Positions 13,067 to 21,825 of a stretch of DNA of 28,645 nt are shown one piece after another. The notes beneath the pieces were generated by a model, which was not told the DNA's origin, did no database searches, and saw nothing but the letters and a program-made list of their open reading frames with translations. Source of the stretch: a virus; IMG/VR virus record IMGVR_UViG_3300045996_000274, positions 1 to 28,645 of that record; one strand, 5' to 3'. Position numbers and translations under genes: made by a program. Numbering within the stretch: the first letter of the stretch is position 1; each line of letters opens with the position of its first letter.

Positions 13067-13252
13067 TCAGGAATTGGTGTCTGTGTGCGTTAAATCGGTA
13101 TTCGGTTGCTGTATAGGTTGCTCGATAACTATACGAGTGTCATCTTTGTACTCAGCGTCATTGCCTATGAAACACCACATGCCGTTACCATAGTAGGCTA
13201 CAGTCCATTCATTATCATCTAGTTTTACCCAGTAGTGGCCGTTTGGTCTCAT
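13067..13252 (-). CDS. Small conserved phage protein (GHYWVK type)
   Basis: 61 residues. The aromatic-rich pattern GHYWVKLDDNEWTVAYYG then WCFIGND is shared by many tiny proteins of Bacteroidota phages, which look like a WW- or SH3-like beta sheet. The function of that group is not known to me. The ATG overlaps the stop of the homing endonuclease gene by 4 bp. Confidence 0.65.
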   Translation of the reverse strand: MRPNGHYWVKLDDNEWTVAYYGNGMWCFIGNDAEYKDDTRIVIEQPIQQPNTDLTHTDTNS

Positions 13253-13959
13253 AATATATTCATTGAGTGGTTATCCATATCATTTGACGGTTGCGAATGG
13301 GGAGGTAATATGTCTTTGTTGACTACTATTCGACCTCCGCAAGTACATTTATCTACTGCGTCTCTGCATTCATAGCATACCCATTCTACTTTCTCTTCAG
13401 GTTGTTCGTCATCGGTCATATGCTTCCATCTTTTACCTTGCAATACTAGACCTATATAGCCCCAATGGCATTTATTGATTATAGCAGCTATTTTCTTTAA
13501 TGTTAGCCCATCTTTACGCAATGATTGTATTCTTCTCACATCTTGCTCAGTTAGTTTGGATAATACGCTATCCTCACCGTTTTGCTTCGTTAACCCTGTT
13601 GCTATAGCATGATGCACATTTTCTAAATGCGTACACCACTCGAGGTTATCAATATGATTATTGAGTTTATTGCCATCTTTGTGATTAATGAATGGTTTGC
13701 CTAAAGGGTTATCAATAAATGCTTTTGCGACTAAAATGTGAGTTTTTATAGTGTGCCCTTTATCATTTCTCTTTAGATTGGATATATAGTAGCCATTTGT
13801 TTTGGCATTCATTTTAGATATACCTCCTTTGACTAATCGCTTATGACCATCTATAGTCACAATTGTACGTGGCTCACTCCTAAACCTACCGTGATTGCTT
13901 ATTGAGTAATAGCCCTCCCATCCTTTAACTGGCAACCATAGTTCATTTTCGTATGTCAT
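13249..13959 (-). CDS. HNH homing endonuclease with C-terminal Cys cluster
   Basis: 236 residues from the ATG at 13959, one base after the preceding stop. Earlier in-frame ATGs would overlap that gene and lie before the usual N-terminus. Domains in order: NUMOD4 (ENELWLPVKGWEGYYSISNHG, here residues 4-24), HNH (HILVAKAF, then INHKDGNKLNNHIDNLEWC, 91-109), and a helix-turn-helix (about 133-180, with KLTEQDVRRIQSLRKDGLT). It should cut an intron-less cognate site and spread itself. Unusually it carries a C-terminal extension with four cysteines (C195, C198, C205, C207), a likely zinc knuckle that may come from a gene it inserted into. Confidence 0.85.
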   Translation of the reverse strand: MTYENELWLPVKGWEGYYSISNHGRFRSEPRTIVTIDGHKRLVKGGISKMNAKTNGYYISNLKRNDKGHTIKTHILVAKAFIDNPLGKPFINHKDGNKLNNHIDNLEWCTHLENVHHAIATGLTKQNGEDSVLSKLTEQDVRRIQSLRKDGLTLKKIAAIINKCHWGYIGLVLQGKRWKHMTDDEQPEEKVEWVCYECRDAVDKCTCGGRIVVNKDILPPHSQPSNDMDNHSMNIL

Positions 13960-13960
13960 G

Positions 13961-14173
13961 TTATTCAATTTCATCTGTACAAGGGAATCTCCCCTCAAAG
14001 AAACCTACCTTAAGTGTGGTGTATTCAATCTCATCCTTCCCCTCCTGCATTACGGGGTGTTGGGAAAGGTAGTTGAAGAGATTATTGTATATTTCTGACG
14101 GATAAAATTCCAGTAGGTTATGTTGCATGTCAAGTATTGCTTGCCGTATGCGATTATTTTCCTTTGTCATCAT
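13961..14173 (-). CDS. 70-aa unknown protein
   Basis: Helical and polar, beginning MMTKENNRIRQAILDM and ending in GFFEGRFPCTDEIE. It follows the XRE regulator gene by 2 bp and ends one base before the homing endonuclease. No domain is recognised; its single cysteine is near the C-terminus. Confidence 0.55.
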   Translation of the reverse strand: MMTKENNRIRQAILDMQHNLLEFYPSEIYNNLFNYLSQHPVMQEGKDEIEYTTLKVGFFEGRFPCTDEIE

Positions 14174-18330: not shown

Positions 18331-18705
18331 TCAATGGAGTGTTAAGTTGAACTCAATACGTGGATTCAACGAATCAATGTGCTTAGTTGCTACAATACGG
18401 TAGCATAATTTATCATTCATTATCGCACCGCATGACTGTAGGCTGTCTAACAGTATCTTAAAACAACCATCAAGGTCTTGGCGCGGGTTCTTTAGGTAAA
18501 CGTCAACCTCAATACTAAACTTATCGTTAATACCTTTGTTCCTATATACATCGCATTGTGCCCAAAATGAACGCTCATAGTCCTTTACTACCGTTGATTT
18601 ATAAAAGCCGCCTTGCTTAGTAGTTTTATATTGGTTGCTTTTACTAGGTATCGCACCTATAATTATTTGGGTACGGCCTAACCATTCGCCCTTAGAAGGT
18701 TTCAT
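18331..18705 (-). CDS. rusA: RusA-like Holliday junction resolvase
   Basis: 124 residues. It should cut four-way junctions made in recombination or replication. The family pattern is present: IGAIPSKSNQYK near the N-terminus, and the metal-binding aspartates in RQDLDGCFKILLDSL (D77 and D79) and AIMND (D98). The length is normal for RusA (about 120). It overlaps the dnaB gene by 14 bp, so both are expressed together. Confidence 0.88.
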   Translation of the reverse strand: MKPSKGEWLGRTQIIIGAIPSKSNQYKTTKQGGFYKSTVVKDYERSFWAQCDVYRNKGINDKFSIEVDVYLKNPRQDLDGCFKILLDSLQSCGAIMNDKLCYRIVATKHIDSLNPRIEFNLTLH

Positions 18706-20125
18706 TATTGTATATTGATTGTGCTGCCTGAGTTAATGCCGGGCTAAATGCTTTGAAAGAACTATAGGAATTAACCTCGTTTGGATCGACAAACTTTTGT
18801 ATTGCTCCCAGAAATACTACCTCTATCTCATCTGTTTGCCCGTTCCTGTGCTTACGCACTACAAGCCATGTTTTAGCATTCTCATGATGAATAAATACTA
18901 CTATGTCTGCATCCTGTTCTATTGCTCCTGATTCCCGCAAATCGGATAACTCAGGTTTACGCTTTGCCGCATCTATACCCCTATTCATCTGAGATAACAC
19001 CAGCATAGGCACTTCGCAATCTTTAGCACACACCTTTAAACATCTGCTCATTTCTGCTATTTGCTGTTCACGATTCTTTTGCCTGCTATCCTGCACACTA
19101 GCTAACTGTAGATAGTCAATTGCCACTAATCCTATCTTTCCTTTGCGTTTATACGACTTAACCTTACTACATATCCTTTGAATGGAATTACCCGCCCTAT
19201 CGTCAATGTAAATGGGCAAAGAAGCTATGTATGATGCTGAGGCATTAAATGTCTTTTGTTCCTGTGGGTTAAATTCACCTGTTTTTATCTTTTCTAAAGG
19301 TATTTGGCTGTGGTTTGAAATTAACCTTTGAACTAATTGGTTTCGGCTCATTTCAAGGCTAAAGAACAATACACCTATCCCAGACATAGCAGCCGCTAAT
19401 ACATGATGCAATACTAAGGCGGTCTTACCTTGTGATGGCCTAGCCGCCAATATAACTAAATCAGTATCCTGCCATCCTTTAGTTAACTGGTCAAGCATAT
19501 AGATGCCAGTAGGCACACCCATAAACTTTTTCTTACCGCTCTGTAAATCATCAATATCATTCATTACGTCCTTTACAGCTTCATTGATATGGGCAATAGT
19601 ATCAGCATCACCAATGTTATTAAGCTGGCTTATTTCGTATTCATGTGAACCCAACAAATCAAATACATCAGAACTATCATCGTAGGCATCCCCTATGGTT
19701 TGCCCGGATATACGTATAAGTTCGCGTTGTATGTATTTTTCCATTACAATACGTGCGTGCGCCTCTACGTGTGCAGCGCTTACAACATCCCTAGTAATTT
19801 GAGCCATGTAATACATGCCACCCGATATTTCAAGCTCATTTGTTTTACCTAATTGCTCGGCTATTGTAAGTATATCTATTGCTTTGCCAGCAGTATGTAG
19901 GGTAATAAGGGCGTTATATATCCTTTGGTTTTGATCTACATAGAAGCATTCAGGCTTGGGTATTATATCCATTATATCCTGAATTCTCTCCTTTTCCATC
20001 AGCAAAGCACCTATTATTGCTTCCTCTAATTTAACCGCCTGAGGGGGCACTTTACCAAAAACAAGGGTTGTTAAATCAGGTTTCCGTGTACGGGCGTTAC
20101 CAAAATCTTTTTTAATGTCAGTCAT
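18692..20125 (-). CDS. dnaB: Replicative DNA helicase, DnaB family
   Basis: 477 residues. A hexameric helicase that opens the fork. The N-terminal domain (about 25-125) has EEAIIGALLM and the usual QRIYNAL pattern. The RecA-like domain has Walker A ARPSQGKT (228-235), the FFSLEMS segment (254-260) and Walker B GLVAIDYLQL (332-341), followed by Q-rich SQMNRGID and RESGAIEQDADIV. All expected motifs are intact. It follows the initiator gene by 1 bp. No loader or primase gene is seen next to it, so host primase is probably recruited. Confidence 0.95.
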   Translation of the reverse strand: MTDIKKDFGNARTRKPDLTTLVFGKVPPQAVKLEEAIIGALLMEKERIQDIMDIIPKPECFYVDQNQRIYNALITLHTAGKAIDILTIAEQLGKTNELEISGGMYYMAQITRDVVSAAHVEAHARIVMEKYIQRELIRISGQTIGDAYDDSSDVFDLLGSHEYEISQLNNIGDADTIAHINEAVKDVMNDIDDLQSGKKKFMGVPTGIYMLDQLTKGWQDTDLVILAARPSQGKTALVLHHVLAAAMSGIGVLFFSLEMSRNQLVQRLISNHSQIPLEKIKTGEFNPQEQKTFNASASYIASLPIYIDDRAGNSIQRICSKVKSYKRKGKIGLVAIDYLQLASVQDSRQKNREQQIAEMSRCLKVCAKDCEVPMLVLSQMNRGIDAAKRKPELSDLRESGAIEQDADIVVFIHHENAKTWLVVRKHRNGQTDEIEVVFLGAIQKFVDPNEVNSYSSFKAFSPALTQAAQSIYNNETF

Positions 20126-20126
20126 G

Positions 20127-20816
20127 TTATTTCCTCCTACTTATCCAGTCTATCAATGTATAATAAACTGATATGTTTTTAGTGAGCAATGGTTTCCAAT
20201 TGTGCATTTGAATTAAAGTGTCAGTTATTATGTTTTTATCATATTTAGCGAATATAGTATCGAACTGAGTAGGAGTTAATTGGTCTTTAAGTTTACATAC
20301 TTGAGGTGCTTTATCTTTCAACCAAACATTAAATTTTTTATAGCTCTCACTTTCGCCGACAGGCGGTATATCCTTCCCTTCCTTTACTCCTTCCCTTCCC
20401 TTCCCTTCCCCTTGATCTTGCACAAGAGGCGTGGGGCACGCGTCAACCACGTGTGGGGCACGCGTCGAAGTTGTTGATAATGAAGGAATTGGTAATAAAC
20501 TTTCAGTTTCCCTATTATTTATTACTTGATGGTCTTTAAATTTAGGAATATATCCATATGTTTGCCCTTCATGCTCATATTTTATTATGAATCCACTTTC
20601 AGAAAGAGCTGAAAGAACCTTATCAAAGTCTACCGAATCGAATGGTAATACATCCAATTTTATAGAATTTGGCCTCCATTTAAACCTCCCTTCACGATCA
20701 GCAATACACCACAGTCCTACATAGGCAATCCTTAAGGGTAGCTTATATTTCTTTTCAGCATTGAATAGATCCTCATGCTTGAAAAATTCGGGTTTTACAG
20801 TCCTGATCCTACCCAT
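20127..20816 (-). CDS. Replication initiator-like protein
   Basis: 229 residues. The N-terminal domain (about 1-105) is a winged-helix type found in phage replication proteins: MGRIRTVKPEFFKHEDLF, LRIAYVGLWCIADREGRFKW, then VLSALSESGFIIKY. Residues about 105-155 are a low-complexity linker with many Gly, Lys and Glu, encoded by a repeat- and G-rich stretch. The C-terminal part (160-229) is helical and could recruit the helicase, as in lambda O or DnaD-like proteins. Its place directly before dnaB supports an origin-binding or helicase-loading role. The linker coding sequence probably holds the origin. Confidence 0.8.
   Translation of the reverse strand: MGRIRTVKPEFFKHEDLFNAEKKYKLPLRIAYVGLWCIADREGRFKWRPNSIKLDVLPFDSVDFDKVLSALSESGFIIKYEHEGQTYGYIPKFKDHQVINNRETESLLPIPSLSTTSTRAPHVVDACPTPLVQDQGEGKGREGVKEGKDIPPVGESESYKKFNVWLKDKAPQVCKLKDQLTPTQFDTIFAKYDKNIITDTLIQMHNWKPLLTKNISVYYTLIDWISRRK
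20371..20414. repeat. Homopurine tract with G-quadruplex potential
   Basis: On the minus strand a purine run with GGGG, GGG, GGG and GGG separated by AA (about 20394-20413), followed by more GGA/GGG groups. Four G runs with 2-nt loops meet the simple G-quadruplex rule. It encodes the Gly/Lys/Glu-rich linker of the initiator and lies beside the iterons. Confidence 0.75.
20431..20466. repeat. Two 14-bp iteron-like direct repeats (candidate origin)
   Basis: GTGGGGCACGCGTC occurs exactly at 20431-20444 and 20453-20466, a period of 22 bp, about two turns of DNA. The period is not a multiple of three, so the copies are translated in different frames, which argues for selection on the DNA. Very GC-rich in an AT-rich genome. 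Placement in the linker of the initiator gene is like lambda ori in gene O. Confidence 0.7.
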
Positions 20817-20819
20817 AAG

Positions 20820-21164
20820 TTATAATCTATTTGGGTTAGATTCTATTTTTCTTACAATTGCCCTAGTTCGAGCAACATTCATCATGCCCATAAAGTAGGC
20901 ATCATAGTTTTCCATTTCTAGATATGTAGCAGCTATATTATTTAAATGCGCTGCCAATCTCTTGAGAGTTGGTAAGGTAAAATCAGTTAATTCGTTTCGG
21001 GAAGATAAGAAGTGTATAAATCCTTTTACACTTGACGGCTTAGCCGTTATAACTTCAGATGCAGCAAGTAAGAATGTATCAAACCCATCATAGTTTTGAT
21101 ATTGGTTCTTTAGCTGAGAATATACAACATCTGCTGGTTGCTCTTGTTGCTGTTGTTTAGCCAT
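20820..21164 (-). CDS. 114-aa protein upstream of the initiator
   Basis: Begins MAKQQQQEQPADVVYSQLK; the rest is helical (ASEVITAKPSSVKGFIHFL, LPTLKRLAAHLNNIAATYL). No cysteine or membrane segment. It is 3 bp from the initiator gene and is the first gene after the structured terminator-like element, so it opens the replication operon. A helper in replication initiation is inferred from position only. Confidence 0.65.
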   Translation of the reverse strand: MAKQQQQEQPADVVYSQLKNQYQNYDGFDTFLLAASEVITAKPSSVKGFIHFLSSRNELTDFTLPTLKRLAAHLNNIAATYLEMENYDAYFMGMMNVARTRAIVRKIESNPNRL

Positions 21165-21174
21165 TTTATAAATT

Positions 21175-21224
21175 AAAAAAACCTGTTGGGTTCAGTGGTC
21201 GCATCACATCCCCCTACAGGTTTT
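21175..21224 (-). terminator. Structured rho-independent terminator or attenuator
   Basis: On the minus strand the arms AAAACCTGT / ACAGGTTTT (9 bp) enclose 29 nt that can fold into inner pairs (GGG/CCC and GTG/CAC or GTGAT/ACCAC with a wobble), and the 3' arm runs into seven Ts (21181-21175). It lies 11 nt before the ATG of the 114-aa gene, so it either ends the upstream transcript or controls entry into the replication genes. Confidence 0.7.
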
Positions 21225-21236
21225 AAATGTCTAGTT

Positions 21237-21253
21237 ACGGTATGCGACACCGT
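21237..21253 (-). promoter_or_regulatory. Upstream hairpin with loop complementary to the terminator loop
   Basis: Stem ACGGT / ACCGT (5 bp) with the 7-nt loop GTCGCAT on the minus strand; CTA/TAG can extend it past a bulge. The loop is the exact reverse complement of ATGCGAC, which forms the apical loop of the terminator hairpin 37-43 nt downstream. The two could pair as kissing loops. Confidence 0.55.
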
Positions 21254-21276: not shown

Positions 21277-21825
21277 TTAATTATTAAACTTATTATTAAA
21301 AGTAAAAATAAAGTTTTTTAGTTTTAGACTATTGCCATTTAAATGATTATAAATAGCATACTTACTAACCCCAAATTGAGAACAACACAGACTAACAGAA
21401 TCGTAACTTCTTATCATGTTCCCAGCTAAATCAAATTGATATACTTTTCTACTCCGACTCGTTACCTTACCTTTTAAATTAACAGGCTTCCTATTTAAAA
21501 CACGATAGGAGTGTAAGTTGTTTTCAGATGATGTACACCAATCTAAATTTGAAACATGATTGTTTGTCTTTATGCCATCCTTATGGTTAACAGTATATTT
21601 ATCTTCAGGGTTTGGTAAAAAAGCTAATGCCACTAACCGATGGTGTCTCAGGCATTTTTTCTTATCTCCTAATTTTACATGAAAATAATAATATCCTGTC
21701 GTACCAACCATAGCTTTAACTGGTCTCTCAAATTCACCTTTTTTATATTTTACATTCCCCCAAGTACTTATATAGTATTTCCCATTCAATCCGTCTATTT
21801 CAGCCCAAATTTCTTTATTTAACAT
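21277..21825 (-). CDS. HNH homing endonuclease (NUMOD4-HNH-NUMOD1)
   Basis: 182 residues. Order of domains: NUMOD4 (EIWAEIDGLNGKYYISTWG, 5-23), HNH (HHRLVALAFLPNP, then VNHKDGIKTNNHVSNLDWC, 79-97) and a C-terminal NUMOD1-like DNA-binding helix (about 128-170, VYQFDLAGNMIRSYDSV). Free-standing; both neighbouring genes are complete, so there is no sign of an intron or intein. More AT-rich than its neighbours, which fits recent arrival. It should cut related phage genomes that lack it and so spread between them. Confidence 0.88.
   Translation of the reverse strand: MLNKEIWAEIDGLNGKYYISTWGNVKYKKGEFERPVKAMVGTTGYYYFHVKLGDKKKCLRHHRLVALAFLPNPEDKYTVNHKDGIKTNNHVSNLDWCTSSENNLHSYRVLNRKPVNLKGKVTSRSRKVYQFDLAGNMIRSYDSVSLCCSQFGVSKYAIYNHLNGNSLKLKNFIFTFNNKFNN

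Follow-up and report, generated by a model that had tools for sequence, protein, structure and literature searches.

The minus strand of the virus record IMGVR_UViG_3300045996_000274 from IMG/VR (28,645 nucleotides [nt], analysed over its whole 28.6-kb length and hereafter called the window) carries, directly before the replication operon, two hairpins whose 7-nt loops are exact reverse complements of each other, the second hairpin being an intrinsic terminator. The same arrangement recurs in related phages and is present in many Bacteroidota phages, where it probably represents an on/off switch of a type not yet described that acts on early phage genes. We consider it fairly likely that the element acts as a transcription attenuator of the replication operon, in which kissing between the two loops would compete with termination, a function that we infer from its parts, position and conservation. 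The parts are the following:

21266-21259, minus strand: candidate Bacteroidota -7 box TAATTTTA, 5/6 against the consensus TAnnTTTG, 5 nt before hairpin 1.

21253-21237, minus strand: core of hairpin 1, ACGGT-GTCGCAT-ACCGT; an outer TCTA/TAGA stem extends the span to 21257-21230.

21248-21242, minus strand: kissing loop 1, GTCGCAT, with compensated changes in relatives.

21225..21229, minus strand: unpaired stretch of the linker that separates the hairpins (the linker measuring 12 nt if counted from the hairpin 1 core).

21224-21178, minus strand: hairpin 2, intrinsic terminator, predicted by folding and also matched by the covariance model R2 (see below).

21208..21211, minus strand: 5' side of an internal loop, GGAT, purine-rich and common to relatives (alignment A5).

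21204-21198, minus strand: kissing loop 2, ATGCGAC, at the terminator apex, exact reverse complement of loop 1.

21191..21194, minus strand: 3' side of the internal loop, TGAA, of which TGA is invariant in alignment A5.

21181-21175, minus strand: terminator T run, read from the sequence.

Hairpin 2 has the layout AAAACCTGT-A-GGG-GGAT-GTG-ATGCGAC-CAC-TGAA-CCC-A-ACAGGTTTT (21224-21178, minus strand), i.e., a GC-containing stem followed by a U run, as expected for an intrinsic terminator. The hairpin region folds more stably than its own shuffles (z -3.2). In the unconstrained fold, 3 nt of loop 1 are open and two terminal pairs shut the remainder; since these pairs are weak, the 7-nt loop would be the form available for kissing. 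The original prediction, made from the letters of the window, had described the two minus-strand hairpins, their complementary loops GTCGCAT and ATGCGAC and the T run, and all of these are present where it placed them. It had also put the terminator 11 nt before the first replication gene; the position is right, the distance is 10 nt (ATG at 21164), and the first gene, p114, encodes a protein without known family.

Taken alone, the hairpin pair of the window exceeds chance by a modest margin only. At the observed spacing, the window contains the exact 7-mer pair once, and none of 100 shuffles contains it; if all possible sequences are allowed, loops that match completely over 7 nt or more arise at some point of the strand in 3 of 60 shuffles, so that the single case is no more than suggestive. 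It becomes compelling because relatives carry the same design.

Relatives of p114 were found neither in the viral contigs nor in the genome contigs or isolated phages searched, and the comparison was therefore made with other phages of the terminase group and their neighbours. We scanned fetched loci of these phages (213 loci, the sample having been extended by fetching via the genes adjoining the first matches) for pairs of a terminator and a preceding hairpin with matching loops, requiring an upstream stem of at least 4 and a match of 7 nt or more between the loops, terminators being counted as gene-proximal when within 45 nt before an open reading frame (ORF). An upstream kissing hairpin was present in 45 of 120 unique gene-proximal terminators, compared with 2.2 (maximum 4) after shuffling of the upstream sequence. 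With a stricter definition of terminators, the arrangement was found in 35/74 cases before an ORF (control 0.9) versus 14/143 elsewhere (control 3.7), which ties it to leaders and not to terminators generally. Early, looser scanners gave counts near the control level (6 versus 5.0; 54 versus 32.7), and single matches at loci L181 (promoter box after hairpin 1), L105 and L017, as well as those within coding sequence, are probably due to chance. The first matches beyond the window sat directly before replication or recombination genes; the genes behind the elements include ERF, annealing-like, initiator and primase genes and DnaB neighbours, with the gene ATG usually 6-30 nt past the terminator.

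The design was also recovered when regions were chosen by orthology of the downstream gene (ERF, annealing-like, initiator and two others): the loops matched over 7 nt or more in 37/37 unique regions with a terminator. This test is not circular, because complementarity played no role in choosing the sites; the 37 regions, many of them closely related, contain 9 distinct loop pairs. In addition, a covariance model (R2), built from 13 relatives with the window excluded and without any pair between the loops, recovered the window site as its sole match in the window (26.1 bits, E 0.0095). Its weakest match among loci outside its training, L138 (E 0.45), has a 9-nt loop match, GCATCTCAA with TTGAGATGC. 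The window element thus belongs to class I, as it combines an R2 match, the GGAT/TGAA internal loop, 7-nt kissing loops and a gene start close behind. Another model (R1) gave no match in 395 Bacteroidota genomes, a search that is uninformative since 10 candidates per genome were scored and there was no positive control. Among isolates, the element is present in the Flavobacterium phages snork6-1, mymlan6-1 and 11b and in the Polaribacter phages Freya_1 and Danklef_2. A single phage may have two elements with different loops (L047, L084, L075 and snork6-1).

The loops vary among relatives with compensation, the opposite of the uncompensated variation that the original prediction had named as evidence against itself. 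Between L050 and L058, 0/10 pairs of the outer terminator stem and 3/7 kissing pairs are changed, all three of the latter being compensated; between snork6-1 and mymlan6-1 (loops GTGAGACG/CGTCTCAC versus GTGGAACG/CGTTCCAC), 0/10 outer stem pairs and 2/8 kissing pairs are changed, both compensated; and between L084 and L072 two of seven kissing pairs are changed, again both compensated. Swapping loops among the 23 distinct elements leaves on average 2.6 of 7 pairs and produces no full match in 506 combinations. In the 9 orthology-chosen loop pairs, 6/7 pairs are changed on both sides and none is unpaired, a pairing of 100% that is partly by construction since the 7-nt segments were placed at the match; the scanner, orthology, swap and pairwise tests are fairer. 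Hand-picked pairs gave the appearance of faster evolution of loops than of stems (diversifying selection), which was gone over all pairs, the change per pair in all comparisons being 0.097 for kissing versus 0.175 for the outer stem.

These data bear on the simplest alternative, namely that unrelated hairpins have coincidentally matching loops, or that the site is an inverted repeat bound by a protein at the DNA level. The equal pairs seen in strand shuffles (see above) would fit coincidence, but we judge this explanation extremely improbable because the design is found repeatedly in front of replication and recombination genes, with its loop changes compensated, and because a sequence-specific protein site would not alter its sequence yet retain complementarity alone.

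In relatives, a promoter-like box directly precedes hairpin 1, usually by 3-6 nt. The -7 box TAnnTTTG is matched 6/6 in 16 of 26 elements, compared with 3.2% in shuffles, and each of the 26 has a match of 5/6 or better (41% in shuffles). Given this box, the element is a promoter-proximal leader, not an end-of-operon terminator. A leader-peptide (ribosome-mediated) attenuator does not fit, as there is no short ORF between the -7 box and hairpin 1, and the 3-6 nt that usually separate them leave no room for one.

The following sequence of events would account for these features. RNA polymerase would start just upstream of hairpin 1, which would be made first. Seven base pairs could then form between the loop of hairpin 1 and the apex loop of the emerging terminator, giving a kissing complex while the lower terminator stem is still unfinished; via the short linker, this complex would compete with closure of the stem. 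A fraction of the polymerases would read into the replication genes and the remainder would stop, releasing a leader RNA of about 85 nt. Kissing would thereby lower, not raise, termination, and regulation of the ratio might come from the timing of transcription or from a factor recognising the conserved internal loop. Before the 3' arm of the terminator is made, the best predicted fold pairs both loop regions (-19.0 kcal/mol at nt 72). We regard it as more likely that kissing favours read-through than termination, and mutual exclusion of kissing and the complete terminator is plausible. On steric grounds the case for such exclusion varies, linker geometry differing among elements.

As to the form of the interaction, the original prediction had offered either a kissing complex or an alternative long pairing. 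Contiguous loop matches span 7-9 nt, mostly 7, which is about the loop size, so that a kissing complex is the likelier form. The long duplex was rejected as the conserved form since matches are mostly confined to 7-9 nt, though the match of the window can be extended to 11 pairs with a bulge. The broader proposal of an RNA switch setting replication gene expression holds as far as the kissing hairpins, the terminator before the replication operon and the leader position are concerned, the switching itself being predicted.

Several observations weigh against an attenuator of this kind. The candidate -7 box of the window lies at the same distance as in relatives but, at 5/6, is weak by itself, and the -33 box is weak. 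Once the 3' arm is present, the terminator is predicted at -27.5 kcal/mol and the nested loop-loop pairing, when forced, at a less favourable -20.9, both energies excluding kissing. At full stretch the linker is 12 Å short of the coaxial span in the window and sufficient in other elements; linker geometry therefore does not decide the matter, and kissing and the full terminator may coexist. Finally, at L078, L081, L082, L086 and L088 the annealing-like orthologue has a promoter-like box directly before its start and lacks the element. Because some orthologous genes have a promoter without it, the element is not essential everywhere; it looks like a cassette between promoter and gene.

Two of these points would suit a terminator that is reinforced by kissing, hairpin 1 clamping the apex and aiding terminator folding, so that early genes would be tightly damped or insulated, possibly without regulation: the linkers have about the length at which both structures could exist together, and the full terminator is the minimum-energy fold. 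We find such a clamp rather unlikely, since a strong intrinsic terminator needs no helper and since a permanently closed terminator right behind its own promoter would silence the gene, while relatives have the same gene and promoter without the element.

Control in trans, in which the terminated leader or a counter-transcript would pair with the loops of nascent leaders and report gene dosage, like the antisense RNAs of plasmid copy-number control, appears quite improbable. Each leader has two mutually complementary loops, so that leaders would be able to pair with each other, and different elements within one genome lack full loop matches. In 8 of 24 elements an antisense TAnnTTTG box lies no more than 200 nt away from where the terminator begins (13.8% in shuffles), which might hint at counter-transcripts, but this excess is small and its control crude. 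Moreover, an antisense scheme does not require loops that are complementary in cis, and kissing pairs change no faster than outer stems (see the rates above), thus giving no sign of selection for new specificities.

Attenuation by kissing in cis, the reading that we prefer, has next to be considered together with the internal loop. The terminator of the window and its class I relatives share GGAT opposite TGAA, below an apical stem of 2-4 base pairs, and GA and TGA are invariant in the 15 sequences of alignment A5. This conservation, which no Watson-Crick pairing explains, and an architecture equal to that of guanidine-IV/Gd4v (PMC7736828, PMC9788692) could point to a gated switch, whose GGAT/TGAA loop would bind a metabolite, or a protein from either phage or host, and tip the balance between kissing and termination. 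Such gating does not seem likely to us: a 7-bp kissing complex should form without ligand, Rfam gives no riboswitch match, and L035, L038 and L143 kiss clearly without the GGAT/TGAA loop, which is therefore dispensable for the basic design. It might even be that these elements form a widespread, undescribed class of phage leader RNAs in which, beyond the terminator, only loop complementarity is strongly kept, acting as a kinetic switch that depends neither on sequence nor on a ligand, and in which the terminated leader might in addition sense genome copies in trans and so time replication; we hold this larger claim to be doubtful.

Rfam 15, searched at gathering score, contains no family matching the window or 16 related loci, apart from one tRNA, and a weak-match Rfam scan of the element site returned nothing credible. 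The tRNA gene match lies in an uncultured phage of the group (L062, 2088-2195, minus strand). In the open literature, we found no description of such a phage element, which is weak evidence of novelty as subscription papers lay largely outside the scope of this search.

The closest known design is that of the guanidine-IV riboswitch, in which a hairpin kisses the terminator hairpin, leading to read-through (PMC11611296, PMC7736828). The phage element resembles guanidine-IV (GGAM-1)/Gd4v RNAs in its hairpins joined by loop-loop pairing, the 3' one being an intrinsic terminator directly before a gene, and in its short linker (PMC7736828, PMC9788692, PMC11611296). In both cases, the proposal is that kissing keeps the terminator stem from being completed, and the defining architecture (two hairpins, a loop-loop pseudoknot and a 3' Rho-independent terminator) is found in the phage element. 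In contrast to guanidine-IV, the loops of the phage element are 7-nt Watson-Crick matches of variable sequence (23 distinct pairs), and the genes behind it are phage replication and recombination genes instead of guanidine-related genes (mostly sugE exporters). The element is thus an architectural variant of the kissing-terminator design of guanidine-IV RNAs and a non-member by gene context and by sequence conservation, the guanidine-IV letters having been compared by description.

More distant parallels exist. In pT181-type plasmids, rep attenuation is driven by an antisense RNA acting in trans; a leader terminator just before a replication gene is common to both systems, whereas the complementary loops of the phage element lie in the same leader. 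The put RNA of phage HK022 is an antiterminator: it does not itself include a terminator, and the terminators on which it acts are distant. Like the present element, it is a pair of hairpins at the 5' end of early phage transcripts and influences termination; unlike in put, the second hairpin of the phage element is itself a terminator and the loops kiss.

To our knowledge, early-gene regulation in Bacteroidota phages has been little studied, and a compact leader of about 85 nt before replication and recombination genes, found in metagenomic phages and isolates, would be the first general control element for these phages. It would also bear on whether ligand-free kissing in cis can control termination. 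As the loop sequence is free provided that both loops match, the element is amenable to compensatory mutation and is a potential simple part for synthetic attenuators.

The host of the window phage is probably a member of the Bacteroidota, as deduced from its terminase, whose best relatives are in uncultured phages and, among bacterial genomes, in Chitinophagaceae and Hymenobacter. Downstream of the element, the gene order is p114, replication initiator, DnaB, RusA, the first three being located as follows:

20820..21164, minus strand: p114, first gene behind the element, 114 amino acids, no Pfam or PHROG family.

20127..20816, minus strand: replication initiation protein (phrog_16167).

18692..20125, minus strand: DnaB-like replicative helicase (family match).

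The DnaB protein gave no match when used as a query for related phages, and HNH endonucleases were the sole blastn matches of the element region. Upstream of the element, on the same strand, lie a DUF3127 single-strand-binding (SSB)-like gene and a NUMOD4/HNH endonuclease gene. In other loci, the element before annealing-type genes is directly preceded by a strongly conserved hydrophobic protein of about 43 amino acids (L047, 958-1077; L062, 3255-3374; L050, 750-869).

The window phage encodes two NUMOD4/HNH endonucleases of the same family, one at 21277-21825, between the SSB-like gene and the element, and one at 13249-13998. In snork6-1 and mymlan6-1, a NUMOD4 endonuclease gene adjoins the SSB gene; this endonuclease gene is preceded by a kissing-terminator leader of its own. 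A second kissing terminator stands before NUMOD4 endonuclease and SSB genes in two isolated Flavobacterium phages (L218, 4931-4968; L219, 4691-4728), with loops AGTCGTCG / CGACGAC.
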